Assembly: GCA_937889545.1 (NCBI GenBank)
Contig: CALAOT010000004.1
Location: forward strand, 1 to 64,000
Direction: 5' to 3'
Source of the DNA: an uncultured Opitutaceae bacterium
Lineage (GTDB): Bacteria; Verrucomicrobiota; Verrucomicrobiia; Opitutales; Opitutaceae
Length of the DNA: 64,000 nucleotides
The translations under genes were made by a program, and so were the position numbers. Positions 3,850 through 64,000 of this stretch are shown here, piece by piece. The number at the start of each line of letters is the position of its first letter. Within the stretch, counting starts at the first letter, position 1. The notes beneath the pieces are model-generated. The model was not told where the DNA came from and ran no database searches. It saw only the letters and a program-made list of their open reading frames with translations.

Positions 3850-4959
3850 ATGAGCACCCCCACGCTTTTCCTCGTTGGAGCCAGTCACCGCACGGCTCCT
3901 CTTGAGTTTCGGGAGAAGCTGGCGCTCGGACTCGAGGCGGAGGCGGGATTTGCCAAGGAACTTGCGGAATTATCTTCCCTTCAGGAGTTTGCCGTGCTGA
4001 GCACCTGCAACCGGGTCGAGATCTATGGTGTTGCGACCGAGGACTGCGCGCTGGATCAGGTGGCTGCTGCGTTTTGCGCCCGCCAGCATGTGGACGCCGG
4101 GGAGTTCGGACGCTTTGGGTTCGTGGCGCGTGGCCGGGAGGCCGTCCAGCACCTCTTCGAGGTCGCCTCCGGGCTAGATTCGCAGGTATTGGGCGAAACG
4201 GAAATCTTCGGCCAGGTGAAGCGGGCCTATGCGGTGGCCCAAGCCCGCGGATCAGTTCGCGCGGTCCTGAACCGCGTGTTCCAGAAGGCTTTCCAGGCCG
4301 CAAAGCACGTGCGCACGAACACCGCGGTGACGGCGGGTCAGGTGAGCGTGGCAAACGTGGCGGTGGATCTGGCGCTGGATGTTTTCGGGAGCCTCGAGAA
4401 CGCGCGGGTGCTGCTCATCGGAGCCGGCGAAATGGCCAGGAAGAGCGGCCGGGCCTTTGCGAGCCGCGGGGCCGGGAACCTGACGGTCTCGAGCCGGAGG
4501 CTGGAGAGGGCGAGCCAGCTCGCGGCGGAGCTTGGCGCTTCGGTGCTGCGTTTCGAGGAGCGCGAGACGCGGCTGGCGGAATGGGATATCGTGGTGTGCT
4601 CAACGTCGGCCCCGAGCGCGGTCATCTCGGCCGGCGCGGTGCGCTCGGCGATGAAGGAGCGCGCGGCCCGGCCGATCCTGTTCGTGGACCTGGCGATGCC
4701 GCGCGACATCGAAGCCTCGGTGGCGGACGCGGGCAACCTGTACCTCTACAATCTCGATGACCTCGGCCAGATCGCGGAGAAGAACCGCCTGGCGCGCGTT
4801 GCGGAGGCCGAGCGCGGCCGGCTGGTCCTTTCCCAGCGGGCAGATGCGATCTGGCAGCAGCTCCAGGCACAGCTGGCGGCAGGGGTTTCCGGTGGAAGTT
4901 GCCAGGCGCCGGAACCGGCCGTCCAAGACCGCGCATTGCGGGCGGTGGTGTTTGCCTGA
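3850..4959 (+). CDS. hemA: Glutamyl-tRNA reductase
   Basis: A 369-residue enzyme that reduces glutamyl-tRNA to glutamate-1-semialdehyde with NADPH, the committed step of the C5 route to haem. Visible signatures are SHRTAP (residues 12-17), the catalytic cysteine in STCNRVEIYG (Cys53), GLDSQVLGETEIFGQVK (108-124), and the nucleotide-binding GAGEMA (191-196). I chose the ATG at 3850 because family similarity begins there; the upstream in-frame start at 3622 would add 76 unrelated residues. The C-terminal dimerisation region is short, since the protein ends about 30 residues after the final helix begins, while the usual length is above 410. The gene converges with hemY, whose stop is 39 bp away, and hemN lies 3.2 kb downstream, so haem genes are grouped here. 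Confidence 0.95.
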   Translation: MSTPTLFLVGASHRTAPLEFREKLALGLEAEAGFAKELAELSSLQEFAVLSTCNRVEIYGVATEDCALDQVAAAFCARQHVDAGEFGRFGFVARGREAVQHLFEVASGLDSQVLGETEIFGQVKRAYAVAQARGSVRAVLNRVFQKAFQAAKHVRTNTAVTAGQVSVANVAVDLALDVFGSLENARVLLIGAGEMARKSGRAFASRGAGNLTVSSRRLERASQLAAELGASVLRFEERETRLAEWDIVVCSTSAPSAVISAGAVRSAMKERAARPILFVDLAMPRDIEASVADAGNLYLYNLDDLGQIAEKNRLARVAEAERGRLVLSQRADAIWQQLQAQLAAGVSGGSCQAPEPAVQDRALRAVVFA

Positions 4960-4998
4960 GCCGCGCGATCCGGCCGGGGGCGCCGGGGGCCAGCTCGC

Positions 4999-6408
4999 TC
5001 AAAAGGCGACGGGAGACGGAGCAAACAAAGCGGCCACCGCCTGCGCGAGCCGGCAGCCGGAGGCGACGCATGCCGAGACGGATATGCCGTCGCGGCAATT
5101 GCCGCCGATGTACAATCCCGGGGCCGATGCCTCTGCGGCGGCGAAGATCGCCTTGTAGCGGTCGAACCCAACGGCGTACTGGGGAATGGCCCGCGCGTGC
5201 CGGCGCACGCGGACAAGGACCGGGGCTTCCCGGGCTCCCAGCAGGGCGGCCAGTTCCGCCTGGACGAGCTTGATCAGAGCGCCGTCGTCAAGGCGCGCGA
5301 GCGCGGACTGGCGGGTGCCCCCGACAAATGTGGTCAGGGCCACGTGGCCGGCCGGCGCGCGCCCAGGAAAAAGCGAGCTCGAGAACAGCGTCCCCAGGAT
5401 GTTCCGGCCCTCGGCCCGCGGAACGAGGACGCCGAAGCCGTCCAGGGCATGGGCCACATCCCCGCGGCGGAAGCCCGTGAAGACCGAGGCGACGGGAGGG
5501 TGCTCAATCTCGCTCAGGGGGGAGAACGCGCCGGGGGTCGCGAATCCCCCTAGGCGCAGCCGGGCCAGCTGGTCGGCGGGCAGCGCGCATATCACCGCGG
5601 AGAACGCCTCCAGATGCGTATCTCCAGCCCGTTCGAAGGCGACGCTCCAGCCGCTCTCGCCGCGCTCCAGGGCCAGAACCCGAGTGCCGAGCCGGATGGC
5701 GCCGCCGAGCTGGTCGGCCAGGGCGCGCGGAAGCTCCTCCAGCCCCTCGGGGAAGGACAGGATCCGGCCGCGCGGCCCGCCGCTCGAATTTCGGAGCTTG
5801 ATCCCGCCAAGGATCAGCGACCGGTGGTCGCGCTCGAGGGCAAAGAGCTTTGGGAAGGCGTGGCGGACGGAAAGCCTGGCGGGGTCTCCCGCGTACACGC
5901 CGCCGACGAACGGGTCCACGGCGTAGTCCAGGAATTCGCGGCCGAGCCTCCGAACCGTGAATTCGGCCAGGGTTTCGTCGCCGCTCAGCCGGCCGCGGGG
6001 CCGGAACACCTCGCAGGCCAGGCCCAGCTTCGCCCGCCAGGAGAACAGCCGCGTGCCCAGGAATTGGGCTGGGGAGGCCGGCATTGGCTCCATCCTGCCG
6101 CGCTTGAGCACGTAGCGGTGCTTGGCCGCCTCGCCCGCGTAGAGGCGCCGGGATCCCAGGCCAACCGCTTCGATGAGGTCGGATGCCTCCGCCGTGCCCT
6201 CCAGCAACGAATTCGGCCCGGACTCGAGCAGCCAGCCGCCTTCGCGGACGGTCTCGATCGCTCCGCCGCACCGGCCGGAGGCCTCGAAGACGGCGACCGG
6301 GATTCCCGCCCGGCGCAGCCTCCAGGCGGCGGTGAGCCCCGTGATGCCGGCGCCGAGCACGGCGACCGGCAGGGCGGGGGACGGCCGGGAGTGGCTGGCT
6401 GACGTCAT
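4999..6408 (-). CDS. hemY: Protoporphyrinogen oxidase (oxygen-dependent, FAD)
   Basis: A 469-residue flavoprotein. The dinucleotide-binding motif GAGITG is at residues 19-24, followed by the FAD-binding acid in FEASGRCGG (about 41-49) and ESGPNSLL. The later segment VDPFVGGVYAGDP and the C-terminal YIGGNCRDGISV (a second FAD contact) are typical of HemY-type protoporphyrinogen oxidases. The enzyme oxidises protoporphyrinogen IX (or coproporphyrinogen III in the alternative route) to the porphyrin at the membrane surface. The two substrates cannot be told apart from sequence alone. The gene is convergent with hemA. It starts at ATG 6408, leaving 251 bp to the start of the multihaem cytochrome gene, which runs away from it. 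Confidence 0.93.
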   Translation of the reverse strand: MTSASHSRPSPALPVAVLGAGITGLTAAWRLRRAGIPVAVFEASGRCGGAIETVREGGWLLESGPNSLLEGTAEASDLIEAVGLGSRRLYAGEAAKHRYVLKRGRMEPMPASPAQFLGTRLFSWRAKLGLACEVFRPRGRLSGDETLAEFTVRRLGREFLDYAVDPFVGGVYAGDPARLSVRHAFPKLFALERDHRSLILGGIKLRNSSGGPRGRILSFPEGLEELPRALADQLGGAIRLGTRVLALERGESGWSVAFERAGDTHLEAFSAVICALPADQLARLRLGGFATPGAFSPLSEIEHPPVASVFTGFRRGDVAHALDGFGVLVPRAEGRNILGTLFSSSLFPGRAPAGHVALTTFVGGTRQSALARLDDGALIKLVQAELAALLGAREAPVLVRVRRHARAIPQYAVGFDRYKAIFAAAEASAPGLYIGGNCRDGISVSACVASGCRLAQAVAALFAPSPVAF

Positions 6409-6659
6409 GAATCGCTAGGGTACCGTGGTTCTTGTGTGAGGTGCATCGCGTCTGTTGCCGGGAGCGTCGCATTTCTTGCCCACACTACGCCCCACGGCGA
6501 GAAACATCTCTTGGGAACCGCCGGGGCGCAATGAGCGATGCTCCTTGAAGCAGGCGAAGCCGTGGGGGTAAGACAAGATACGCGCAGTGCCAGCCAACCG
6601 GCGCGCAGTGGCGCGAGCCGGCATCTGGTATATTGCCGCATTCCCACGCCCCACCTGCA

Positions 6660-15471: not shown

Positions 15472-17249
15472 GAAGATACATGGCCTCCGGGGCGCTGGTG
15501 CTCGCGCTGGTCTGGATCGGATCCACCCTGGTGCCGCGCGGCAATCCTGGCGCGTTCGACCTGGCGTCGTTCGGGCGGCTGCCGGTGCTGGCCGACGGAC
15601 GCATCAAGCCGATGGACACGGTCGCCCGCACGAGCCTCCTCATGCTGCAGGGACGCCAGCGGCTTGCCGCGGCCGACGGCCGCGCGCTGACGCCGGAGGA
15701 GTGGCTCCTCGACGTGCTGTTCCGGCCCGAGGTTGCCGACGCCTACCGGATATTCCGCATCGACAATTCCGAGGTGCTCTCGCTCTTCGGCCTGGGCGCC
15801 GGCGAAAGCGCGGGCCAGGTGAGGTTCTCCTTCGCGCAGCTCCAGTCCGGGCTGCCGGAGCTCGATCGACAGGCGCAATTGGCCGGTCCGGTGGACGCCG
15901 CGGCGCGCACCTCCTTCCAGCGCGCGGTCGTCGAGCTGCGCGAGCACCTGGAATACTACGGCCGGCTGAAATACAGCCTGCAGACGCCCGACGGCTTCGA
16001 CCTGTCCGCGGTCCTGGACGATCCGGGCCGGCTCGCTGCGGGCCGCCCCGGCTTCGAGACGATGGAGGCGTTCAGCCTGCTGCGGGCCATTCCGCCGCCC
16101 GCGCCGTCGGCCCGCCTCGACGAATGGCAGAGCATGGGGCGGTCCCTGCTGCGGGCGCTGCCCGCGGGAGCGGTGGATCGGCCGGTGCGTTTCTACGCCG
16201 CGATTGGGCGGGCCTGGAAGGCCGGGCAGGCCGCGGATTTCAACGCCGCGGTCGGGGCCTACCGGGCCGACCTGTCCCCGCGGTTCGCCCCGCTACTGCG
16301 CCGATGCTCCCTTGAGAGCCTCTTCAACCAGGCGGAGCCCTTCTTCACGAGCCTGGTCCTCTATGTGGCGGCGTTCCTGCTGGCCGTGGCGTCCTGGCTC
16401 AAATGGCCCGCCGAGCTGGGGCGCGCCGCCTTCCGGCTCATGACCGTCGCCTTTCTCCTGGCGACCGCGGGGATCGTCGCCCGCATGTGGCTCGAGGGCC
16501 GGCCCCCGGTGACCAACCTCTACTCCTCGGCGCTGTTCATCGGCTGGGGATCGGTGGCCCTGTGCCTGGTCCTCGAGCGGCTCAACCGCAACGCGGTGGC
16601 GAGCTCGGCCGGCTCGCTGATCGGCTTCGGCACGCTTGTGATCGCCCACAACCTGTCGCTCAGCGGCGACACGCTGGAAATGATGCGCGCGGTGCTCGAC
16701 TCGAACTTCTGGCTGTCGACCCACGTGGTGACGGTGACGACGGGCTACGCCTCGACCTTCCTGGCCGGCTTCCTGGCGATCATCTACATCGTGCGCGGCG
16801 TGTTCAGCCGCACCCTCGACCGCCCGACGGCCGACTCGCTGGCCGGCATGGTCTACGGCATCGTCTGCTTCGCGACGCTTTTCAGCTTTGTGGGCACGGT
16901 GCTGGGCGGCATCTGGGCGGACCAGTCCTGGGGCCGATTCTGGGGCTGGGATCCGAAGGAGAACGGCGCGCTCATCATCGTCCTCTGGAACGCGGTCATC
17001 CTCCACTGCCGGTGGGGCGGCCTCGTCAGGCAGCGCGGGCTAATGTGCCTGGCCGTGTTCGGCAACATCGTGACGGCATGGAGCTGGTTCGGCACCAATA
17101 TGCTCGGGGTCGGCCTGCACAGCTACGGCTTCACCAACGCGGCGTTCCAGGGCCTCGTCGCCTTCGTCGCCCTGCAGCTGGCGGTGATCGGCGTCGCGGC
17201 GATCCCCCGTGCCAAATGGCGCAGCGCCGCTCTCGCCGGCCCGGCCTGA
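15468..17249 (+). CDS. ccsA: CcsA/ResC-type haem handling protein (System II)
   Basis: A 593-residue protein. The C-terminal half has about eight membrane segments with the tryptophan-rich WWD-type haem-binding motif WGRFWGWDPKENGA and flanking histidines (IAHNLS, STHVV, GLHSYG) that serve as axial ligands in this family. The N-terminal 270 or so residues are an extra, mostly extracytoplasmic region after one signal-anchor helix, longer than in classical CcsA. Its partner resB overlaps the start. Function: haem export and ligation to periplasmic apocytochromes. No terminator with a T-run is visible before the small cytochrome c gene 196 bp downstream. Confidence 0.9.
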   Translation: MRRYMASGALVLALVWIGSTLVPRGNPGAFDLASFGRLPVLADGRIKPMDTVARTSLLMLQGRQRLAAADGRALTPEEWLLDVLFRPEVADAYRIFRIDNSEVLSLFGLGAGESAGQVRFSFAQLQSGLPELDRQAQLAGPVDAAARTSFQRAVVELREHLEYYGRLKYSLQTPDGFDLSAVLDDPGRLAAGRPGFETMEAFSLLRAIPPPAPSARLDEWQSMGRSLLRALPAGAVDRPVRFYAAIGRAWKAGQAADFNAAVGAYRADLSPRFAPLLRRCSLESLFNQAEPFFTSLVLYVAAFLLAVASWLKWPAELGRAAFRLMTVAFLLATAGIVARMWLEGRPPVTNLYSSALFIGWGSVALCLVLERLNRNAVASSAGSLIGFGTLVIAHNLSLSGDTLEMMRAVLDSNFWLSTHVVTVTTGYASTFLAGFLAIIYIVRGVFSRTLDRPTADSLAGMVYGIVCFATLFSFVGTVLGGIWADQSWGRFWGWDPKENGALIIVLWNAVILHCRWGGLVRQRGLMCLAVFGNIVTAWSWFGTNMLGVGLHSYGFTNAAFQGLVAFVALQLAVIGVAAIPRAKWRSAALAGPA

Positions 17250-17445
17250 GCCCCCGATCCACGGCGGGGATACTCCCCGTGGCTACCAACCCGGGACCTG
17301 CGCCTCCGGCGCCCCTTCCCGCCGTCCGGCAGCCGCCTTCAGCCGCGGCGCCGGCGAGATTCGCGCAGGATTGGCTGTACGAGGCGGGCCATTCCGGCTA
17401 GATTGCCGGGTGATTCGGTACCCGCCCCAACAAAAAGTGACTCAC

Positions 17446-17781
17446 ATGAAAAAATACATGCTCCTTGGATTCGCGTCCTCCGTTCTCCTTGCAGCCCCGG
17501 CGGTCTTTGGCGCCGACGCTGGCGACAACTATGCGAAATACTGCGCGTCGTGCCACGGCAGCGACGGCGCCGGCCATACCAAGGCCGGGCGGATGCTCAA
17601 GGTCAAGGACCTGACCGACGCCCAGTACCAGAAGTCATTCACCGATGAGACTGCGTTCAAGGACCTGAAGGAGGGTTCGCAGAGCAAGGACGGAGTGGTC
17701 CAGATGAAGCCCATGAAGGACAAGCTCTCGGACGACGAGATCACGGCCGTCGTGAAGTACATCCGCACGTTTGCGAAGTGA
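17446..17781 (+). CDS. Small monohaem cytochrome c
   Basis: A 111-residue secreted protein with a signal peptide (about 1-23, ending VFGA). It has one haem site CASCH (33-37) and a methionine-rich segment VQMKPMKDK that can supply the distal ligand. The C-terminal helix DEITAVVKYIRTFAK is typical of class I cytochromes c. It is a likely soluble electron shuttle between the inner-membrane cytochrome and periplasmic acceptors. It follows the maturation genes after 196 bp, probably with its own promoter. Confidence 0.93.
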   Translation: MKKYMLLGFASSVLLAAPAVFGADAGDNYAKYCASCHGSDGAGHTKAGRMLKVKDLTDAQYQKSFTDETAFKDLKEGSQSKDGVVQMKPMKDKLSDDEITAVVKYIRTFAK

Positions 17782-17790
17782 AGCTTCGGG

Positions 17791-17809
17791 GCGGGCTGTC
17801 CCGGCCCGC
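17791..17809 (+). terminator. Weak hairpin after the cytochrome c gene
   Basis: 6-bp GC-rich arms (17791-17796 and 17804-17809) with a 7-base loop lie 10 bp after the stop. There is no T-run, so termination may be weak or Rho-assisted. Confidence 0.35.
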
Positions 17810-17862
17810 ACCCTGAGAAGACGCATTGAAGCCGGATGCGCTCCGGCGCGCGCGGATCGCGT

Positions 17863-18327
17863 TCAGGCGGCCGACACCGCCGATATCGCCGGCCGCGCCG
17901 CATCCATCTGCTGGCAGAGGGAGCAGAACGATTCCACCTCGCGCCGGGCGATGTCGTGCAGGACCAGGTACAGCTCGGCCGCGGCCCTGTCCCATGTCTC
18001 CGGCGCCAGGTCGCGTGCCTCCGACCACGCCAGGGATAGCGCACCCTGCAGCGCCCGCTCGCCCGCCATGAAGTAGGCGAGCAGCGGGTTTCGGCCGCAG
18101 TCGCAGATGGCGCGGACGGCCGCATAGGAGCAGGGCTGAGCGGGCCGGCGCCGGCATCCGGCGCCCAGGGAGGCGAAGAGCACGTTCAGGGTGCGGCCGA
18201 TCAGGTGAGCCAGAATGTCGGGGTTCCCGAGCGGCGTGGCCACCGGCTCGGCGCGCAGGAAGGCCTCCCAATCCCGCCGAATCGCAGGACGGCGGGCTCG
18301 GAGGCGCTTCAGCAGGCTCTCGTCCAT
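17863..18327 (-). CDS. Conserved hypothetical protein with Cys pairs
   Basis: A 154-residue soluble protein that looks mostly helical. It begins with a basic helix (KRLRARRPAIRRDWEAFLR) and contains a C-D-C pair in CDCGRNPLLAYF and a CXXC pair in FCSLCQQM near the C-terminus. The composition and start fit a real gene rather than a shadow. I recall similar proteins beside signalling genes in related bacteria, but no function is known to me. The cysteine pairs could bind metal or sense redox state, which is speculation. It converges with the small cytochrome c gene. Confidence 0.6.
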   Translation of the reverse strand: MDESLLKRLRARRPAIRRDWEAFLRAEPVATPLGNPDILAHLIGRTLNVLFASLGAGCRRRPAQPCSYAAVRAICDCGRNPLLAYFMAGERALQGALSLAWSEARDLAPETWDRAAAELYLVLHDIARREVESFCSLCQQMDAARPAISAVSAA

Positions 18328-18591
18328 GCCCCGACCATACTACGCCCCGCGCCTTCATTGCTCCGCATTTGTTGACGAGCCCCGCGCATCTCTTGCCAGG
18401 ATGGCGCCGCCACCATTCTCCCGCGGCGTTCGGGCGGGGCCCGCGGGAGCCAAAACATGCCCTTCCAGAGGGTTTTCCGCCGAAGGCCAAGAAATGCGCA
18501 AATGCCGCCAAAGGGCGCGGAGCACGGTGGGGACAGGAAACGATACGCTGGTTCGGACCCGTTCGCCCCCCTAGCCGCGCCCACCTTTTCC

Positions 18592-18987
18592 ATGGCCGTT
18601 ATCCCAATCACCCGGGCGCTTTGCCGGGGAACGCCGGTAATCCATCGCGGCATCCTGGAGGGCAAGGCCGACTTCTACTACCTGCGGAAGGGCATCGGCG
18701 GGATCCGGGAGCTCATTGGCATGGAACGCACCCATCGGCGCGTCCAGGGCGCGATCATCACCTTCTCGGTCGCCTACAATGTTGCGGCGGCCGGGCTCGC
18801 GATGGCGGGCAGGGTGAATCCCCTGGTTGCCGCGGTCCTCATGCCCGCCAGCTCCCTGGCATCCCTGGCGATCGCGACCTTGGGAATGCGGCGCGGGATG
18901 GCCGGGGCCGAGAGGCCGGCACCCCAAGGACTCCCCGAGGAACCGGTGGCCCTACACGATCGGGAAAGCGCATGCGCACCACTGTAA
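18592..18987 (+). pseudogene. C-terminal fragment of a heavy-metal P-type ATPase
   Basis: The frame encodes up to 131 residues. From about residue 20, GILEGKADFYYLRKGIGGIR and the two following hydrophobic segments, with NPLVAAVLMPASSLASL, match the end of CopA/CcoI-type transport ATPases. The ATPase core (DKTGT, TGE, HP motifs) is absent; upstream sequence does not encode it. This is most likely the remnant of a deleted ATPase gene. A short membrane protein that is still made cannot be excluded, because the frame has an ATG at 18592 and overlaps the start of the next gene by 16 bp. Confidence 0.6.
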
Positions 18988-55523: not shown

Positions 55524-57431
55524 CTACCGCGTGACCACGTCCCAGTAGACGTTGTAGCGGTCGTAGCTGATTTCCCAGAAAGGGCGCAGCGCGACGTCGG
55601 GCGGAAGGCCGAGGCCCGTCGCGTGGAACACGAGCGATCCGTCCGCGGAGCGGACGACCGAGGACTCGACCGGGGAGCCTGCGCGCACGAGCGCCGGAAC
55701 GGCGACGGCGGGCGCGCCCAGGTTGGCGTCCTGATGCTCCGCATAGGGGACGGTGGCCGCCTGCGGCTCCGGCCCGAGGTCAGCCGCGAGGACCACCGGA
55801 CCGTAGAGGAAGGCGACCTTGCCCGGCGCTCCGGGCATCGCCTCGGTGCGCACGGCCATGGGGATCGTGGCCGCGAGGCGGTCGCCCTTGTTCCACGTCC
55901 TCCGGACGACGGCGTAGCTGCCCGGCGCGCCGGGGACGCTGATCGGCTGGCCGTTGAGCTCGAAGGCGAGCGGGCCCGCCGCCCAGCCGGGGCAGCGAAC
56001 CCTGATCGCGAGCGGCGCCGCGGGCGCGGACGTCACGGTGAGCTCGGTCCGGTTGCCCGCCGGATAGTCGGTCCTCTGCTCCATCGAGAATCCCACCTCC
56101 TTCCACGCCAGCGCGGAGGGGATGAAGAGGTTCACGTACAGGTCGTCGCCGCCGTGGAAGTAGATGGCCTCGCCGTATTTGGTGTGGTTCTCCATCCCGG
56201 TGCCGACGCAGCACCAGAACGAGTCGAAGGGGGTGCTGAAGGTCTTGAAGAGGCCCGGCTTTAGCGACATGAAATACGTGAACATGCCCAGCTTCGGCTC
56301 CTGCGAGGCGAGAATGTCGTTGTAGAGCGCGCGCTCGTAGAAGTCGGCGTAGTCCGCCTTCGGATCCCAACCGAACAGATGCTCCGTGAGCTTGAGCATG
56401 TTGTAGGTGTTGCAGGTCTCCGCCGTGTTGGCGCCGAGGTGCCTGGACATCGTGTCCTCGGGGAACAGGTGCTCGTCCTCGCTGTTGCCCCCGATGACGT
56501 AGGAGTAGTGGTGGGCGATCAGGTCCCAGAAATACGCGGCGATGTCCCGGGCCCGGGGATCGCCGGTGGCCTCGTAGGTGCGCGCCTCGCCGATGATCTT
56601 CGGGATCTGGGTGTTGGCGTGCTTGCCGGGCAGCTCGTCGCGGTGCGCAAGCAGGGGATCGAGCACCGCCCTGTGGTAGAACCGGCGCGACGTCTCGAGA
56701 TAGCGCGGGTTGCCCGTCAGAACGTACAGCTCGACCAGGACGTCCATCATGCCGCCCTGCTCCACGGACAGCATCGTCTGCAGCTTCTCCGGGGTGAGCC
56801 CGGCGGTGATGGCGTCCGCCCAGTCGGCCAGCCTGAGCGCGACGTCACGGGCCTGGCCGTTGCCGCCGAGGATCCATGCGTCCTTCAGGCCGTTCAGAAC
56901 CTTGTGCTCGGTGTACCAGGGCACCCAGGCGCCCCCCCTGAAGTTGAACGGGCCCTGCGTCTCGACGATGCCTTCCCTGAAGTTGCGCATCGTCTGAAGC
57001 TCAAGGGGCGGCAGCGCGCCGATGTAGCCGTCCCCGTACGCCGTCTGGCACTGCGCCATCTCGGCGATGATGTAATCGACGCGCCGGCGGAACCGCGCGT
57101 CGCCCGTGGCGGCAAACTGCTGCGACAGCGCTGTCAGGTAGTGTCCGAGCGTGTGGCCGGCGATGCCGTGGGACTCCCATCCGCCGTAGCTTTCGCCCTT
57201 CGGCGTTAGCCCGGCATACCTGCGCGTGTTGTGCAGCAGGCGGTCGGGCTCGATTGAGAGCAGATAGTCCGCGTTGCGCTCCATCGCGCGCCGGAACGGG
57301 CTGTCGAGAAGGCGGACGTCGCCCAGCGCGAAGGGGCGGGCCGCCGGGGCCGCGGCCTTCTGGGAGGGATCGGCCCGGGCCGAATGCGCCGCGACCAGCA
57401 GGGCTAGAAGGCCTGGGATGAGCGGTTTCAT
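55524..57431 (-). CDS. Secreted GH127-like beta-L-arabinofuranosidase
   Basis: A 635-residue secreted enzyme (signal peptide about 1-19). The GH127/GH146 (DUF1680) core is complete: GLTPKGESYGGWESHGIAG, WVPWYTEHKVLNGLKDA, GANTAETCNTYNMLKLTEHLF (catalytic Glu and first zinc cysteine), and DSFWCCVGTGMENHTKYGE (nucleophile and zinc-binding cysteines). It should remove beta-L-arabinofuranose from glycan or glycoprotein side chains by a cysteine-based mechanism. The longer frame to 57485 is ignored because ATG 57431 gives the signal peptide. Its stop lies 27 bp from that of the convergent LivK-type gene. Confidence 0.9.
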   Translation of the reverse strand: MKPLIPGLLALLVAAHSARADPSQKAAAPAARPFALGDVRLLDSPFRRAMERNADYLLSIEPDRLLHNTRRYAGLTPKGESYGGWESHGIAGHTLGHYLTALSQQFAATGDARFRRRVDYIIAEMAQCQTAYGDGYIGALPPLELQTMRNFREGIVETQGPFNFRGGAWVPWYTEHKVLNGLKDAWILGGNGQARDVALRLADWADAITAGLTPEKLQTMLSVEQGGMMDVLVELYVLTGNPRYLETSRRFYHRAVLDPLLAHRDELPGKHANTQIPKIIGEARTYEATGDPRARDIAAYFWDLIAHHYSYVIGGNSEDEHLFPEDTMSRHLGANTAETCNTYNMLKLTEHLFGWDPKADYADFYERALYNDILASQEPKLGMFTYFMSLKPGLFKTFSTPFDSFWCCVGTGMENHTKYGEAIYFHGGDDLYVNLFIPSALAWKEVGFSMEQRTDYPAGNRTELTVTSAPAAPLAIRVRCPGWAAGPLAFELNGQPISVPGAPGSYAVVRRTWNKGDRLAATIPMAVRTEAMPGAPGKVAFLYGPVVLAADLGPEPQAATVPYAEHQDANLGAPAVAVPALVRAGSPVESSVVRSADGSLVFHATGLGLPPDVALRPFWEISYDRYNVYWDVVTR

Positions 57432-57497
57432 GTGGGTGTGTCGGCCGATGAAAGGGGGTCTTCCGGGAATCGGCCAGATCTTCATGCCGCGGCCGGG

Positions 57498-59237
57498 CTA
57501 GTCCATGCCCTCGACCGCGAATATCTCGACGGGCTCGTCGCGGCCCCTCACCGGCGCCGCGCCCAGCGGGCGCACCCTGTATTGTCCGCGCGCGACCCTG
57601 AGCGTCGCGGCGCTCACCAGGATATCGGCCCGATACTGGGACATCCGCGTCAGGTCCTGGAGGCGCGCCGCCACGTTGACCCCGTCCCCGAGGACCGAAT
57701 AGTTGAGCCGGCGGGACGATCCGATGTTTCCCGCTATGACTCTCGCCGTGTTTATCCCGATGCCGAAGGCCAGCTTGGTGCCACCCTCGGTCGCGAGCTC
57801 GGCGTTCAGGCGGGCGAGGGCGGATTTCATCTCCAGGGCGGCGAGGATGGCGTTGTCCGCGTGGTTCGGGAGGGCCACCGGCGCCCCGAAGAGCGCCATG
57901 ATCGCGTCGCCCATGTACTTGTCCACGACGCCGAGGTAGATCTCCACGATCACGCTCATCCGGTCGAAATACCTGTTGAGCAGGGCGAGGACCTCGCGGG
58001 GGGGGATCGACTCGCTCAGCCGCGTGAAACTCCTGATGTCCACGAACAGGACCGTGACCTCGAGTTCCTCGCCTCCGAGGGCGCCGCCGCCGCTGACCAG
58101 CTGCGCGGCGATCTCGGGGGAAAGGTTCTTGTCGAGCAGGTCGCGGATCTGGTCCCGCTCGGCAAGGCCCTCGCTCATCCGGTTGAACGAGGTCGCAAGC
58201 TGGCCGATCTCGTCCTCGCGGTCGAGGTTCAGGCGGATGTTGTAGTTGCCGCGTGCGACGACCTGCGTGTGCGCGGCCAGTTCGCGCAGCGGCTCGCTCA
58301 GGTTCCGCGCGAACCGGACGGCGAGCAGGGCGGCCACCGCCAGTAGGACCAAGGAGAGGTACCTGAGGAAGCGCTCCAGTTCGAGGTCGGGCGCGAGCTC
58401 GGCCTCGAGCGACCGCTGCATGGCGATTGCGGCGTAGCCCGGGGTTATGAGCGGGACGGGCCAATACACGGTCACATACGAGTTGCCGGCCACCCTGACG
58501 GTCCGATCGGCCTCCTCGGGGGAGGACGGCGCGGCCATTTTCGCCTCGGCCGCCGGCAATGAGGACTCGATCGGCATCATGGCATCGGACCTGCCAAAGA
58601 AGACTGTGACCTCGACGCGCGCGTCCGCCTTGAGTTCCATCACGAACCTGTGGTCGACGGGAATGGCGAGCCCGATCCAGGCGCCGGTCTCGGGCACCCG
58701 CGCGTGCGTGGGCACCACGAGCAGCGCGTACAGCTTGCCGTTTCCTCGGTCGTCCGGAAGGTGCGCAAAGGCCTGGTCGCGCGCCTCGCCGGAGATCGAC
58801 GCGTTCTTCACGAGCTCCTGGAAGGGGCGTAGCGCCGCTCTGGGCAGGGCGCCCCCCGTGTCCCCGATCCTGGATCCGCCGGGTGAGAGCAGCACCATGA
58901 AGGGGACGTTCATCCGGGCACTGTAGGTATTCAGGGCCGATCGGGCCGCGGCGGGATCGGGCCTGTCCCCCAGGAAGAGCTGCTGAAAGGCGTCATCGCG
59001 CGACATCATGACGGCGCGGTTCCAGAGTTCGTCCAGCTTGGCGTCCGTGCGGTGCTTGAAGAGCAGCGCCCCCTGTTCGAGGCCCTCGTCGATGCGCCTG
59101 GCCGCGCTCTTGCGGTTCTCCCTGACCACGAAGATGTAGTTTGCGCACTGGGCGAGCGCGACAAGCCCGACAATCAGGAGCAGCAGACGGCTGCTGAAGC
59201 GCCTGAACCTGGGGAATCTGGAGCTCATGGGGCCCAA
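57498..59237 (-). CDS. Membrane-bound class III adenylate/guanylate cyclase
   Basis: A 579-residue protein: one helix at about 16-34, an extracytoplasmic sensor domain of about 250 residues, a second helix near 292-310, a HAMP domain (about 310-365) and a class III cyclase domain from about 385. Both metal-binding aspartates are present (VLFVDIRSFTRL and YMGDAIMALFG), as is the purine-site lysine in DKYMGD. The transition-state residues fit in NVAARLQDL. Lysine and aspartate at the purine site suggest cAMP. It is divergent from an exporter with two cyclic-nucleotide-binding domains 395 bp away, so the two may be functionally linked. Confidence 0.92.
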   Translation of the reverse strand: MGPMSSRFPRFRRFSSRLLLLIVGLVALAQCANYIFVVRENRKSAARRIDEGLEQGALLFKHRTDAKLDELWNRAVMMSRDDAFQQLFLGDRPDPAAARSALNTYSARMNVPFMVLLSPGGSRIGDTGGALPRAALRPFQELVKNASISGEARDQAFAHLPDDRGNGKLYALLVVPTHARVPETGAWIGLAIPVDHRFVMELKADARVEVTVFFGRSDAMMPIESSLPAAEAKMAAPSSPEEADRTVRVAGNSYVTVYWPVPLITPGYAAIAMQRSLEAELAPDLELERFLRYLSLVLLAVAALLAVRFARNLSEPLRELAAHTQVVARGNYNIRLNLDREDEIGQLATSFNRMSEGLAERDQIRDLLDKNLSPEIAAQLVSGGGALGGEELEVTVLFVDIRSFTRLSESIPPREVLALLNRYFDRMSVIVEIYLGVVDKYMGDAIMALFGAPVALPNHADNAILAALEMKSALARLNAELATEGGTKLAFGIGINTARVIAGNIGSSRRLNYSVLGDGVNVAARLQDLTRMSQYRADILVSAATLRVARGQYRVRPLGAAPVRGRDEPVEIFAVEGMD

Positions 59238-59632
59238 GGTCTCGCCCTCACCTCCATCCGGCGCCCCGCGCAGCGGCCCCCGGGGTCGGCGCTCCCGCCG
59301 GAACTGCCGTGGCTGCGCGGAGGGCGGTTGTTGGGTGGCGTTTCATCGGGGAGGCGTGGTTCAGAACTGGTGCACGAAGCTCGCGCTGACAAGGTCGTTC
59401 ACATCCGGGCCTCCTCGGGCCTGCGCAGTCTCGTCCCGGCGGATTGCATGGCCTCGACTTTCAGGCGCGCAGCTTGCGGATGGAGAGGGCCCGTTTGGGA
59501 GACAAGCCTGCGCAAGGTCCGGCCGCCCGGCGTTTCGGCCGCGCCTCCAGGTCCGCGGTGCCGGCCACCTCGCGCCGGCTGGGCCTCAACAGGATTGCCC
59601 TTGCCCGTGTTTTTATCGGCAATAGCGCCCCG
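59238..59632. other. Divergent region between the cyclase and exporter genes
   Basis: 395 bp without a complete gene. Promoters for both directions should lie here, but none is clear. The exporter frame stays open upstream to 59444; that part does not look like protein. A short stretch on the minus strand resembles the end of an outer-membrane protein and is listed separately. I looked for a small leader peptide with a double-glycine site and found none. Confidence 0.55.
59361..59405 (-). pseudogene. Possible remnant of an outer-membrane protein C-terminus
   Basis: The minus strand reads DVNDLVSASFVHQF followed by a stop at 59361-59363. Alternating hydrophobic residues ending in a terminal Phe are the usual end of a beta-barrel protein. 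Upstream in the frame the similarity is lost within 15 residues. It could be a fossil of a barrel gene that once preceded the cyclase gene, or chance. Confidence 0.3.
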
Positions 59633-62600
59633 ATGGCAACGGACGACACCGACGAACTCCTGCGCGGCTCCGCGTTTCTGAAGTTTGTCCCGGAAGGGCA
59701 CCGGGCGGGGCTGTGCGGGATGTTCCGGAAGGAGCGCTTCGAATTCGGGGACCTGATCGTCCGGGAAGGCGATGCGGCGGACGCCTTTTTCTTCCTGGCG
59801 TCGGGGCGGGCCCGGGTGGTCAAGACGAACGACAGGGGAGAGGAGCTGGTCCTGGCCTCGCTGCGGCCGGGTTCCGAGTTCGGCGATGCCGCGCTCCTCG
59901 AAGGGGGCGTGCGCACGGCCTCCGTCCGGTGCAGCACCTCGGTTGAGGTCCTGAGGCTGGGGCGCGACGACTTCCTGGAGATGCTTGGGCGCCATCCGGA
60001 ACTGAGGAACTACCTGGAGATGACGGCGCGCTTCCGGGCCATGCACAGTTTCCTTTACGAGTTCAGCAACTTCGGGCGCCTCTCCGCGCCGGCCTTCAGG
60101 GACCTGATCGAGAACCTGTCGCGCGTCAGCTTCCCGAAGGGCCAGTTGATCCTGCGCGAGGGCGAGCCCGCCGGACCGATGTACATCGTCCTGGCTGGGC
60201 GCGTGCGGATATTCACCTCCAAGGGCGGCCGGGTGAAGAACCTGGCCTTCTGCCGCGAGGGAGACTTCTTCGGCGAGCTCTCGCTGCTCACCGGCTCGCC
60301 GCGGGCGGCGTCGGCCGAGGCCTCGGCGGACACGCAGCTGTTCGCGCTGAAGCCTGAGGCGGTCCACGACCTGAGGCGGAGGTATCCGGACTTCTCGAAG
60401 CTGCTGGAGGAGCGGGTGGCGCAGTACAACAAGGACGCCGAGGCGCGCGTCCCGCTGGATTTTTCGATCGAGTCGCTTCCCGCGGAGGCGGGCGCCGCCG
60501 GCCCCGGGGATTCCGGGCCGGATCTGGCGGAGACCGCGCCGTCCGCCGAGGACGAGGACCCCTTTGCCGACGAGAAGGGTCTTTTCGCAAAGAGAAAGGG
60601 GCGGATCAGGAGCATTCCGTTTGTGCAGCAGATCGACGCGATGGACTGCGGGGCGGCGAGCCTCGCCATGGTATGCCGTCATTTCGGCCGGGACGTCAGC
60701 CTGTCGCTCATCCGGCGGCTCTGCCACGTCTCGCAGGATGGAACGAGCCTCAAGGCCATCTGCCATGCCGCGACCGAATTGGGCCTGGCCGCGCGTTCCG
60801 TCAAGGCGTCGCTGCGCAATCTTCCGGTCATGCCCCTGCCCGCGATCGTGCATTGGGAGGGGAACCACTGGATGGTGCTGTTCGATGTCGGCCGGTCCCA
60901 TGTGCGGGTGGTTGATCCAGGGAGGGGCCCCCGCAGGATCCCCCTTCGCGAATTCGAGGAGAAATGGTCGGGCTACGCGGCCCTGTTCGACTACACGATC
61001 GCCTTCGAGAATGCGCCGCTAAACCGGCCGAGCCTGGCGTGGCTGGCGCCTTTTCTCCGCAGGTTCCGCTCCGTCCTGGTCCCGGCCGTCCTTCTTGCGG
61101 GGGTGATCAGCTTCCTCCAGCTGCTTTTCCCCATCTTCACCCAGACCGTCGTGGACAAGGTGATCGTCGAGCACGACCTCGGGCTGCTCAACATGATCAT
61201 GGTCGGGTTGGGCGCGTCCCTGGTGTTTTTCCAGCTGGCCAATCTCGCGCAGCAGTACCTGCTCGGCTTCGCGGCCCTGCGGATCGACGCGGCCCTGCTC
61301 GATTACCTGACCCGCAGGCTGCTCTCGCTGCCGATGTCCTATTTCGCGAGCCACCGCACAGGCGACATCCAGCGGCGGCTGGATGGGGCGCGGCAGATCC
61401 GACAGTTTTTCGTGCAGCACGGCATCGGCGGCCTCCTGGCCCTTGTCCAGCTGCTGGGATCCGTGGTCCTGATGGCGGTCTACAGCCCCAAGCTCACGGC
61501 AATATTCCTCTCCACCACTCCGCTCTACGCCGTCCTGATGGCCTTCTCCGCGAAGGTGCTGAGGCCGCTCTTCTCCGACATCGAGCAAAGCCAGGGGAAA
61601 TACAACTCGCACCAGATAGACGCGATCAAGGGGATCGAGGCGGTCAAGGCGGCGTCGGCCGAGATAGCCTTTCGCGGGGCGATCCTGGGCGAGTTCCTCG
61701 CCGTCGCGAAGAAGCTGTTCCGGAGCAATTTCATCGTGATGTCCTATGACAGCGTCCTGCAGACCATCGGCCTGATCTCGACCGGGCTGTTCCTGTGGTT
61801 CGGAGCCCATAGCGTGATCGAGGGCCAGCTTACGGTCGGCGGCTTTGTCGCCTTCAGCTCCCTCACGGCCATGGCCTACGCCGCGATACTCCGGGCGCTT
61901 GGCACATGGGACAGCCTTCAGATGGCGTCGGTGCTCCTGAACCGGCTCAACGAGATCTTCGACGAGGAGCCGGAGCAGGGCAGCGACCGGTCCCGGCTCA
62001 TTCCCGTGCCCAGCCTGGAAGGGCGCATCGAGCTGAGGAACATCGGCTTCAGGTACGGCGGCCCGGAGGCGCCGGCCATCCTGAAGGGCGTCTCCTTCGA
62101 CATCGCCCCGGGCCAGATGGTCGCGGTCGTCGGCCGGAGCGGAAGCGGCAAGACGACGCTGATCAAGCTGCTGGCCGGCCTGATGGAGGCGACCGAGGGA
62201 AGCATCCACGTCGACCATCTCGACATCAAGACCGTGAACTATCGCGACCTGAGGCGCCAGATCGGCATGGTCCTGCAGGAGAACCACCTGTTCGACGCCA
62301 CGATCGCCAGCAACATCGCCTTCGGGGACAGCGAGCCCAACTTCGACCGCGTGCTCTGGTCGGCGCAGGTCGCGAACGCCCACGATTTCATCATGCGGCT
62401 GCCGATGGGCTACGAGACCCGCATCGGCGAGTCCGGACTGGCCCTCTCGGGCGGGCAGAAGCAGCGGATCGCGATCGCCCGCGCGGTATACAACGACCCG
62501 CCTATTCTGATCTTCGACGAGGCAACGAGCGCGCTCGACACGGAATCGGAGCGCACCATCCAGGAGAACATGGGCCGGCTGATGTCCGGCCGCACGTGCA

Positions 62601-62752
62601 TCGTCATCGCTCACCGGCTGAGCACGATCCGCGAGGCGAATGCGATCATCGTTCTCGAAAAGGGCGAGATCGCCGAGACCGGGACCCACGACGAGCTCAT
62701 GGCCAGGCGCGGGCTCTATTTCTACCTCTCCAGCCAGCAGCTGGGAATCTAG
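59633..62752 (+). CDS. Peptidase-containing ABC exporter with two cyclic-nucleotide-binding domains
   Basis: A 1039-residue protein. Two cNMP domains come first (about 10-135 and 145-265). The second has the cassette FGELSLLTGSPRAASAEA (Glu214, Arg224, Ala-Ala), very like cAMP-binding cassettes; the first has FGDAALLEGGVRTASV with Asp85 and Arg94. A C39 peptidase follows (about 327-445) with intact catalytic Cys339 (DAMDCGAAS), His412 (GNHWMVL) and Asp428. Then come six membrane helices (about 475-750) and an ATPase (VGRSGSGKTT, LSGGQKQRIA, LIFDEATSALD). It should cut double-glycine leaders and export peptides. The ATG at 59633 precedes the first cNMP domain directly. An HlyD-like gene follows after 3 bp. 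Confidence 0.93.
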   Translation: MATDDTDELLRGSAFLKFVPEGHRAGLCGMFRKERFEFGDLIVREGDAADAFFFLASGRARVVKTNDRGEELVLASLRPGSEFGDAALLEGGVRTASVRCSTSVEVLRLGRDDFLEMLGRHPELRNYLEMTARFRAMHSFLYEFSNFGRLSAPAFRDLIENLSRVSFPKGQLILREGEPAGPMYIVLAGRVRIFTSKGGRVKNLAFCREGDFFGELSLLTGSPRAASAEASADTQLFALKPEAVHDLRRRYPDFSKLLEERVAQYNKDAEARVPLDFSIESLPAEAGAAGPGDSGPDLAETAPSAEDEDPFADEKGLFAKRKGRIRSIPFVQQIDAMDCGAASLAMVCRHFGRDVSLSLIRRLCHVSQDGTSLKAICHAATELGLAARSVKASLRNLPVMPLPAIVHWEGNHWMVLFDVGRSHVRVVDPGRGPRRIPLREFEEKWSGYAALFDYTIAFENAPLNRPSLAWLAPFLRRFRSVLVPAVLLAGVISFLQLLFPIFTQTVVDKVIVEHDLGLLNMIMVGLGASLVFFQLANLAQQYLLGFAALRIDAALLDYLTRRLLSLPMSYFASHRTGDIQRRLDGARQIRQFFVQHGIGGLLALVQLLGSVVLMAVYSPKLTAIFLSTTPLYAVLMAFSAKVLRPLFSDIEQSQGKYNSHQIDAIKGIEAVKAASAEIAFRGAILGEFLAVAKKLFRSNFIVMSYDSVLQTIGLISTGLFLWFGAHSVIEGQLTVGGFVAFSSLTAMAYAAILRALGTWDSLQMASVLLNRLNEIFDEEPEQGSDRSRLIPVPSLEGRIELRNIGFRYGGPEAPAILKGVSFDIAPGQMVAVVGRSGSGKTTLIKLLAGLMEATEGSIHVDHLDIKTVNYRDLRRQIGMVLQENHLFDATIASNIAFGDSEPNFDRVLWSAQVANAHDFIMRLPMGYETRIGESGLALSGGQKQRIAIARAVYNDPPILIFDEATSALDTESERTIQENMGRLMSGRTCIVIAHRLSTIREANAIIVLEKGEIAETGTHDELMARRGLYFYLSSQQLGI

Positions 62753-62755
62753 CCC

Positions 62756-63961
62756 ATGGCGATGACACCGAACGCAAGGCGAGCCGACCGGGATGCGCTG
62801 GACAGCGAGTCGGCGATGCTGCCGCAGGACCCCCCGCACTGGGTTGTCCGGGGCACGGCCTGGCTTATCATAGCCCTGTTCGCGACTGCGCTGCTGGCCG
62901 CCGTTCTCGTCCATGTGCCGGAGACGTTCCGCTGCCCGTGCATCCTTGTTCCGGAAGGAGGCGCCGACCCGATCCAGTCGCCGCGCCTCGCGGAGATCCG
63001 CCAGGTCCGCGCCGGCGAGGGCCGTGAGGTCGCGGCGGGAGACGTGCTCTTTGTCCTGAGCTCCGAGGACGTCGGCGACCGCGACACCCAGGCGCGCACG
63101 CTGGAGGAGGACCTGGCATCGCGGAAAAGGAACATGAAGCAGGCCGAGGCAACCGATGCCGCGGACCTCGAGATCAAGGACCACGAGATCGCCCAGGCCG
63201 ACGAGGAGGTGCGATTCCGAGAAACCTCCGTTGGCGTCGAGCGCGACCTGGCGGCCCGGTATGAGAAGCTCTCGAAGATCGGGGTCTACTCGGAGACGGA
63301 CCTGGTCTTGCGCCGGCTCGAGCTCGCGGGAGCCGAGAAGGACCTCAGTGTCGCCTCGCGAACCCGCCAGCAGGTCATCCTGCAGCGCCAGCAGATGGCG
63401 GCAGAGCAGGCCCGGCAGCGTTCCGACCAGCATGCGGAGATCGAGAAGCTCGAGATCCGCCTGGGCGCCCTGAAGCGCGAGCTCGAGGACTCCCACCAGA
63501 ACTTGATCTCCGTGCGCGCGCCCTATGACGCCGTGGTCATCTCGCTGGCCGCGAACAATCCGGGAAGCGTGGTGCAGAGGGGCCAGGAGCTGTGCCAGCT
63601 CGCCCGCGCGGACGGGGGGCTGAGACTGCACCTGCTGCTGGCCGAGCCGGGGCTTGCCCGGATCGCGGTGGGCCAGCGCGTGAGATTCTTCGCCGATGCC
63701 TTCCCCTATCAGCGCTACGGCACCATATCCGGGACCCTTTCATGGATCAGCCCTTCGGCCGTCTCATCGCGCGAGGGCAAACAGTTTGTCGCCCTGGCGA
63801 CGCTCGACCGGAAAGCCTTTCAGGTCGGCGGGCAGGCCCGGCCGCTGCGCGTCGGGATGGGCGGCGAGGCGCGGATCGTGGTCGGCAGCCGGACGCTGAT
63901 CGAATTCGTCCTGGAGCCGATCCGCCAGCTGCGGGAGAATCTCGGCCGTCCCACCCTCTGA
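62756..63961 (+). CDS. HlyD-like periplasmic adaptor (membrane fusion protein)
   Basis: A 401-residue protein with one N-terminal membrane helix (about 35-55), a lipoyl-like half (IRQVRAGEGREVAAGDVLF), a long alpha-hairpin or coiled-coil part (about 105-245, rich in Glu/Arg/Gln), the second lipoyl half (LISVRAPYDAVVISLAANN) and a beta-barrel region. This is the membrane-fusion partner of the C39 ABC exporter gene 3 bp upstream and would connect it to an outer-membrane channel. No TolC-like gene or precursor peptide gene is visible before the window ends. Confidence 0.9.
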   Translation: MAMTPNARRADRDALDSESAMLPQDPPHWVVRGTAWLIIALFATALLAAVLVHVPETFRCPCILVPEGGADPIQSPRLAEIRQVRAGEGREVAAGDVLFVLSSEDVGDRDTQARTLEEDLASRKRNMKQAEATDAADLEIKDHEIAQADEEVRFRETSVGVERDLAARYEKLSKIGVYSETDLVLRRLELAGAEKDLSVASRTRQQVILQRQQMAAEQARQRSDQHAEIEKLEIRLGALKRELEDSHQNLISVRAPYDAVVISLAANNPGSVVQRGQELCQLARADGGLRLHLLLAEPGLARIAVGQRVRFFADAFPYQRYGTISGTLSWISPSAVSSREGKQFVALATLDRKAFQVGGQARPLRVGMGGEARIVVGSRTLIEFVLEPIRQLRENLGRPTL

Positions 63962-64000
63962 CGTGTCACGCGCGGGTTGAGGGGGGCAGAAGGTTGATGA

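Follow-up and report, generated by a model that had tools for sequence, protein, structure and literature searches.

HetC of Nostoc PCC 7120 is the characterised case of an exporter with a sensor, a peptidase and a transporter in one chain: it is a peptidase-containing ATP-binding cassette (ABC) transporter (PCAT) with an N-terminal cyclic-nucleotide-binding (CNB) domain, i.e., a CNB-PCAT. According to PMC10986499, the N-terminal part of HetC binds ppGpp (Kd about 59 uM) and not cAMP, its cNMP domain is needed in vivo, and neither a double-glycine (GG) leader gene nor a membrane fusion protein gene was found near hetC. Here we describe a CNB-PCAT of a soil bacterium, an uncultured member of the Opitutaceae (Verrucomicrobiota; assembly GCA_937889545.1, 4.33 Mb in 128 contigs, 92% complete). 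Its gene lies on contig CALAOT010000004.1 (C4, 104,128 bases), the first 64,000 bases of which (C4:1-64000) were analysed and are called the window. The exporter stands beside a membrane adenylate cyclase, and the original prediction joined the two into a signalling-export unit. The genes are as observed, but the unit has to be redrawn: what goes with the exporter lies downstream. We consider it probable that the exporter belongs to a self-contained, CNB-gated peptide-export cassette in which the cyclase is no dedicated partner.

Other cyanobacterial systems are also close to this locus. Wang et al. describe clusters with a long C39 transporter carrying CAP_ED, together with HlyD and SurA (PMC3140520). 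Like their clusters of groups I, II and VI, the cassette described here has a long-type C39 transporter with N-terminal CAP_ED, HlyD and GG-type precursors, and its candidate counterpart of the SurA/rotamase-type protein is a TIGR04500 match below the cut-off with no rotamase Pfam domain. It differs from them in its phylum, its methyltransferase, its four-peptide tandem array, its very short precursors and its leader family, for which no Pfam or NCBIfam match was found. In Synechococcus elongatus, EbfG1-4 and PteB act in biofilm formation (PMC4997328), and there too the system consists of four small GG proteins that are encoded together and a C39 transporter. The EbfG precursors, however, are 9-10 kDa, unlike the peptides here, and the term "cyclic nucleotide" is absent from the main text of that source. 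Among the literature matches listed (for CNB-PCATs, Verrucomicrobia GG leaders, TIGR04500 and the phosphate-binding cassette motif), we found no description of this exporter clade, nor of the peptide family and its spread in Verrucomicrobia.

The exporter and its downstream cassette

The features of the cassette are as follows, with positions beyond the window given on the contig:

59633..62752, + strand: exporter with tandem CNB domains, C39 peptidase, ABC membrane domain and ATPase, 1039 aa (open reading frame, Pfam)
59732..59995, + strand: CNB1, phosphate-binding cassette (PBC) FGDAALLEGGVRTA, D85 and R94
60125..60385, + strand: CNB2, PBC FGELSLLTGSPRAA, E215 and R224
60614..60988, + strand: C39 peptidase domain, C339, H412, D428
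62756..63961, + strand: HlyD-type membrane fusion protein (Pfam HlyD_3)
63966..64000, - strand: 3' end of the cassette's S-adenosylmethionine (SAM) methyltransferase gene (whole gene, contig 63966-65180)
contig 65448-65585, + strand: GG-leader peptide 1, 45 aa, beyond the window
contig 65733-65864, + strand: GG-leader peptide 2, 43 aa, beyond the window
contig 66016-66168, + strand: GG-leader peptide 3, 50 aa, beyond the window
contig 66328-66444, + strand: GG-leader peptide 4, 38 aa, beyond the window
contig 66460-67518, + strand: TIGR04500-like PpiC-related protein, 352 aa, beyond the window (TIGR04500 match below cut-off)

The exporter's reading frame runs to 62752 and, from the ATG at 59633, encodes 1039 aa. 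Pfam recognises two cNMP_binding stretches, Peptidase_C39, ABC_membrane and ABC_tran in it, the C39 set Q333-C339-H412-D428 is present, and so are the ATPase motifs (Walker A at 834, signature at 938, Walker B at 959). The two CNB domains that had been predicted in front of an intact peptidase, membrane domain and ATPase are therefore in place. The protein has the features of a PCAT (a C39 domain with Gln/Cys/His/Asp fused to an ABC membrane domain and ATPase, with four candidate GG precursors nearby) and, with its N-terminal cNMP domains preceding the C39 and ABC domains, those of the HetC type. The catalytic Cys and His are found in both proteins, but HetC has one annotated cNMP domain and this exporter two; and, unlike the surroundings of hetC, this cassette includes a membrane fusion protein gene and GG-leader genes. 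The cassette thus belongs to a known kind, as the original prediction had held for C39 exporters with cNMP domains.

A C39 search of the bacterium's own assembly returned this one exporter. Its NCBIfam scores fall short of the curated cut-offs, at 527 against 853 bits for NHLM_micro_ABC1 and 533 against 726 bits for type_I_sec_HlyB. Its nearest named homologs, among the best 80 of 378 confirmed relatives, are the Opitutaceae metagenome-assembled genomes (MAGs) palsa_1470, palsa_1380 and bog_1449. A tblastn search of plasmids matched at least 5000 records; in nine of these 5000, one place spans 80% or more of the query, and the ten best matches listed come from Burkholderiales, cyanobacteria and Skermanella. 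Four of the ten were examined, one of which carries no annotation.

The cassette extends past 64000 in the order exporter, HlyD, methyltransferase (on the minus strand), four tandem GG peptides and the TIGR04500-like protein. The advice to look there for double-glycine genes proved sound, as four lie at contig 65448-66444. They share a leader ending PKGG and differ in their cores, which are 10-22 residues long; a leader-family search of the own assembly returned these four only (E<=0.1). The TIGR04500 match of the 352-aa protein scores 35 bits (E 7.6e-9) against a curated cut-off of 180, and TIGR04500 is among the graspetide-associated families according to PMC8939145. The peptide array contains four copies of a 119-nt unit spaced 283-312 nt apart (contig 65380-66640, L002:3380-4640) and three copies of a 52-nt repeat, the last of which overlaps the start of the TIGR04500-like gene. 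Because of these repeats, the array probably grew by tandem duplication, judging from its sequence.

The wider family was studied in those best 80 loci, with flanks of up to 10 kb a side; in 42 of the 80, each side reaches 3 kb or more, and many contigs end near the gene. Searches of open reading frames found PpiC-like proteins in 57 loci, HlyD in 60 and methyltransferases in seven. An iterated leader profile found leader-family peptides in 27 of the 80 loci and none in reversed sequences in each of three rounds; the final listing pass was not itself paired with a reversed control, and a few of the peptides listed depart from an exact GG. Related cassettes occur in records titled Verrucomicrobia, Acidobacteria and others.

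Among close relatives, the exporter, HlyD, methyltransferase and PpiC-like genes occur together in genomes G003, G007 and G010, all three with GG peptides, and in G003 and G007 the genes around the cassette differ from those in the window. A tRNA scan of four loci (L019, L020, L021 and L062) found none, hence no tRNA insertion site was seen there. Three GG-peptide cores of relatives share the motif NPQPLPP and are otherwise different (L020:11791-11961, L021:15805-16191 and L021:17569-17892). Near the cassette in G003, a gene for a radical SAM protein stands next to an additional GG-leader peptide (L019:4374-5888 and L019:3980-4126), and it is possible that this protein is an extra modification enzyme. 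In the exporter of G010 (L063 / L021), Asn replaces the C39 aspartate, giving QCHN, while the other 79 of the 80 homologs have QCHD.

The adjacent cyclase and how it came to lie there

The features on the cyclase side are as follows:

55524..57485, - strand: GH127 beta-L-arabinofuranosidase-like gene, adjoining the cyclase on the same strand (Pfam; synteny with G004, G006, G008 and G010)
57498..59228, - strand: membrane class III cyclase with sensor region, HAMP and Guanylate_cyc (Pfam, motifs)
59358..59384, - strand: remnant, 3' end of a lost outer-membrane protein (OMP)-like gene (blastn to G010 L021 8830-8856, 92.6% over 27 bases, E 3.5e-7)
59423..59513, - strand: remnant, 5' end and upstream region of the lost OMP-like gene (blastn to G010 L021 9631-9721, 74%, E 1.9e-10)

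The cyclase reading frame spans 57498-59237 on the minus strand from a TTG start, and the ATG at 59228 gives 576 aa. Pfam finds HAMP and Guanylate_cyc in it, and the motifs DKYMGD and SVLGDGVNVAARL are intact, as in class III adenylate cyclases; in this family, Lys and Asp in these motifs are read as a preference for ATP, which may hold here. No solved relative of the sensor region was found. A divergent intergenic region of about 400 bp separates cyclase and exporter, so the predicted layout (membrane cyclase divergent from exporter, then HlyD) is correct, with all genes present and intact by reading frame and Pfam. An Rfam scan of the window gave no matches.

If the adjacent sensor cyclase made the cAMP that gates this exporter directly and specifically, the two genes might be expected to travel together. 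Exporter homologs (E<=1e-120) and cyclase orthologs (E<=1e-60) were counted in 141 relatives, own genome included: the exporter occurs in five (G000, G003, G007, G010 and the distant G097) and the cyclase in 28. In the 13-genome genus, two genomes have both genes (G000 and G010), two the exporter alone (G003 and G007, the latter only 64% complete), four the cyclase alone (G004, G005, G006 and G008) and five neither, giving no sign of co-occurrence (Fisher p 0.66). The cyclase ortholog lies near the exporter in only one of the 80 homologous loci, that of the closest relative (L063). The pair is thus not conserved across the genus or the 80 loci, which is the outcome that the original prediction had itself named as telling against a dedicated unit.

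The cyclase has other conserved partners. In 27 of the 28 genomes with an ortholog (all but G039; in L034, if not in others, the contig ends within the locus), a cupredoxin-like gene accompanies it in 24 and an OMP-like gene in 21. G004, G006 and G008 have the order livK-GH127-cyclase-cupredoxin-OMP-GH141 without an exporter, and the GH127 gene of the window is part of this old cyclase neighbourhood, outside the exporter cassette. The operon of OMP-like, cupredoxin-like and HAMP-cyclase genes is conserved in the window's family (L056-L061, L021 and L143-L160), and a gene for a LolD/YbbA-like ABC ATPase often lies divergently beside it (an assignment checked with Pfam for three of these genes and with NCBIfam for one). 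It is possibly the cyclase's true sensory module.

Sequence comparison suggests how the two genes became neighbours. In G010, the cassette sits between the OMP gene and GH141, and two genes separate cyclase from exporter. The window lacks both the cupredoxin-like and the OMP-like gene; blastn synteny with G008 breaks off where the cyclase starts and is picked up again within GH141, some 8.6 kb on. Short collinear matches to G010 remain for both ends of the OMP gene, 3' and 5', and for the start of the exporter. A cupredoxin ortholog moved elsewhere was considered and rejected: the assembly has a single match, which covers part of the protein at 42% identity and was read as a paralog. Because three relatives have exporter-free loci and the window has deletion remnants, the adjacency is best read as gain of the cassette here (or its loss elsewhere) followed by deletion of the two genes.

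Flanks of the wider exporter family offer the dedicated unit some support. Seven cyclase-domain proteins lie in six of the 80 flanks (L063, L100 with two, L107, L114, L118 and L120) against about 2.8 expected (3.0 per Mb; Poisson p 0.026, or 0.068 without L063), a mild, unexplained excess. The profile used extends into HAMP and its sensitivity may fall short of that of Pfam, making this count a lower bound. Pfam confirmed the matches in L100, L107, L114, L118 and L120 (L118 barely above the cut-off), and the candidates in L085, L102, L122, L132 and L136 were dropped for having no cyclase domain. The five loci other than L063 do not share the window's arrangement. One of them, L100 of a Verrucomicrobia MAG, has TPR-cyclase proteins on both sides of the exporter cassette, about 3 kb away (4280-6658 and 16393-18792).

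A directly coupled cyclase is in our view highly improbable. The excess, the adjacency in G000, the separation by just two genes in G010, the canonical CNB2 pocket (below) and the intact cyclase motifs all speak for it. Against it stand the genomes of the genus in which either gene occurs without the other, the cupredoxin-like and OMP-like partners whose loss brought the genes into contact, and the 74 of 80 loci with no cyclase-domain protein found by profile in flanks that are often short. With no coupling of the two genes in the genus, other genes as the steady companions of the cyclase and an adjacency that appears to stem from rearrangement, the cyclase is very probably a bystander to the cassette.

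The sensor domains and their candidate ligands

Canonical PBC motifs read FGE(L/I/V)AL..(P/V)R, with a Glu and an Arg (PMC2246266). CNB2 has both residues, as E215 and R224, and its FGELSLL has Ser in place of Ala. The original prediction was right about the canonical cassette and Arg224, but its Glu214 is E215 when counted from the ATG at 59633. Among the 80 homologs, Glu and Arg (E+R) are kept in CNB2 in 60, in CNB1 in 53 and in both pockets in 51. CNB2 has E+R in all 27 loci with leader-family peptides and in 56 of the 57 with PpiC-like proteins, and this retention suggests selection for a ligand.

Structural comparison points the same way. For both CNB domains, the PDB sequence matches (the best 60 out of 166 and out of 188) have a Toxoplasma protein, PKG and PKA at their head. 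An AlphaFold model of residues 1-462 has a mean predicted local distance difference test score (pLDDT) of 80.6 and a predicted template modelling score of 0.50; the CNB blocks have pLDDT of about 73-93, each PBC has a short helix (86-89 and 215-220), and confidence is low for residues 269-307. Searched with this model, Foldseek ranks PKA regulatory subunits first (best E 2.4e-21; the leading matches share about 20-24% identity), so the tandem is modelled as folding like them. However, the whole-tandem root-mean-square deviation is high, meaning that the predicted relative domain orientation differs from PKA or is uncertain, and the modelled domain arrangement is therefore not to be trusted. 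The folding alignment (A4) used 32 rows picked from the 80 loci, with Burkholderiales absent, so the invariance of E215 and R224 in it is no independent count and the 80-locus count applies. The exporter thus resembles the PKA regulatory subunit and PKG in its tandem CNB fold and PBC motif and differs from them in that the tandem is fused to a peptide exporter.

The pockets might instead gate the exporter with another nucleotide, (p)ppGpp or GTP, and no cyclic one. This is how HetC appears to behave, given the ppGpp binding and the need for its cNMP domain cited above, and Kannan et al. report a variable PBC Arg in an AAA-ATPase CNB group that includes several proteins with a membrane region like that of ABC transporters (PMC2246266). 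The canonical CNB2, with E+R in most homologs, and the cAMP and cGMP binders among the leading solved matches make this unlikely for the present exporter. It is less likely still that the CNB domains are structural or assembly modules of a constitutive exporter. In favour of this are the 18 of 80 homologs with E+R in neither pocket, some from Burkholderiales, which keep their C39 residues, two of them (L119 and L120) being gapped at the CNB2 motif; the retention of E+R in both pockets of 51 homologs, and in CNB2 of every peptide locus, opposes it.

Gating by a cyclic nucleotide is plausible and, we infer, the most likely mechanism, and the points which weigh against it or against the cassette reading as a whole are these. 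CNB1 departs from the canonical motif, with D85 in place of Glu and R94 kept; Asp for Glu is found in the window's genus, L063-L065 (contigs of G010, G007 and G003) sharing D+R with this exporter. The 18 homologs lacking both pairs, many of them Burkholderiales, imply that the scaffold tolerates other ligands or none; HetC's N-terminal part does not bind cAMP. No leader-family peptide was found in 53 of the 80 loci, where many contigs end early, the flank cyclases exceed expectation, and whether the cyclase locus gained or lost the cassette is not polarised. Finally, cyclase abundance is suggestive support for cAMP gating but is confounded by lineage. PF00211 cyclases occur in 53 of 53 exporter genomes (49 behind L066-L115, L078 and L086 sharing one, plus G003, G007, G010 and G097; L116-L142 left out), compared with 84 of the 97 genomes of one order and 96 among the 141 relatives of the window. 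Among those relatives, the split is five of five with the exporter against 91 of 136 (p 0.14); against 79 of 92 of another order, p is 0.002, with lineages mixed and the 92 unchecked for the exporter. Separately, Burkholderiales homologs (e.g., L129, L135, L137-L139, L141 and L142) have lost the phosphate-binding Arg of CNB2 and have intact C39 and ATPase motifs.

Candidate peptides and proposed function

For the self-contained cassette, we propose the following. The PCAT would cleave the double-glycine leader of the four short tandem precursors, and the 10-22-residue cores would be exported through HlyD and an outer-membrane channel. The TIGR04500-like protein and methyltransferase would probably bind or modify the precursors. 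The tandem N-terminal CNB domains would most likely gate cleavage or transport, with a cyclic nucleotide in CNB2. That nucleotide would be drawn from the cell's general pool (four cyclase genes were found in the own assembly) and from no dedicated neighbour. The adjacent cyclase would be what remains in the window of an older OMP-cupredoxin-cyclase operon after deletion of its two companions. Of all this, the sequence itself shows the gene content, the intact motifs, the uncoupled distribution and the deletion remnants; processing, export, gating, the ligand and the role of the peptides are inferred.

An antibacterial (microcin-like) role of the peptides, as opposed to one as signals or matrix factors, has somewhat less than an even chance. 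In its favour, cyanobacterial clusters that combine C39 and HlyD with SurA-like proteins count as bacteriocin clusters (PMC3140520). However, the cores here are very short and varied, no immunity gene was recognised among the annotated cassette genes (no search was aimed at one), and the comparable set of four GG peptides and a C39 transporter, EbfG1-4/PteB, serves biofilm formation.

The original prediction therefore survives in its exporter, its sensor, its canonical and conserved CNB2 pocket and, with the downstream peptides, its candidate substrates; the dedicated cyclase, its claimed novelty, is not supported. The case shows how a tempting gene pair can arise through cassette gain or loss plus deletion. 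Beyond this locus, it is close to an even bet that the exporters form a multi-phylum PCAT clade in which a tandem switch like that of PKA regulatory subunits directly gates the processing and secretion of very short peptides, with the substrates next door. Work on HetC left two questions open for CNB-PCATs, namely the sensor's ligand in the cell and the substrate. Both become testable here because the pocket of CNB2 is canonical and four candidate substrates lie next to the one C39 exporter that the search of the assembly found. If the proposal is true, it would mean peptide secretion gated by a second messenger, with its substrates encoded next door.

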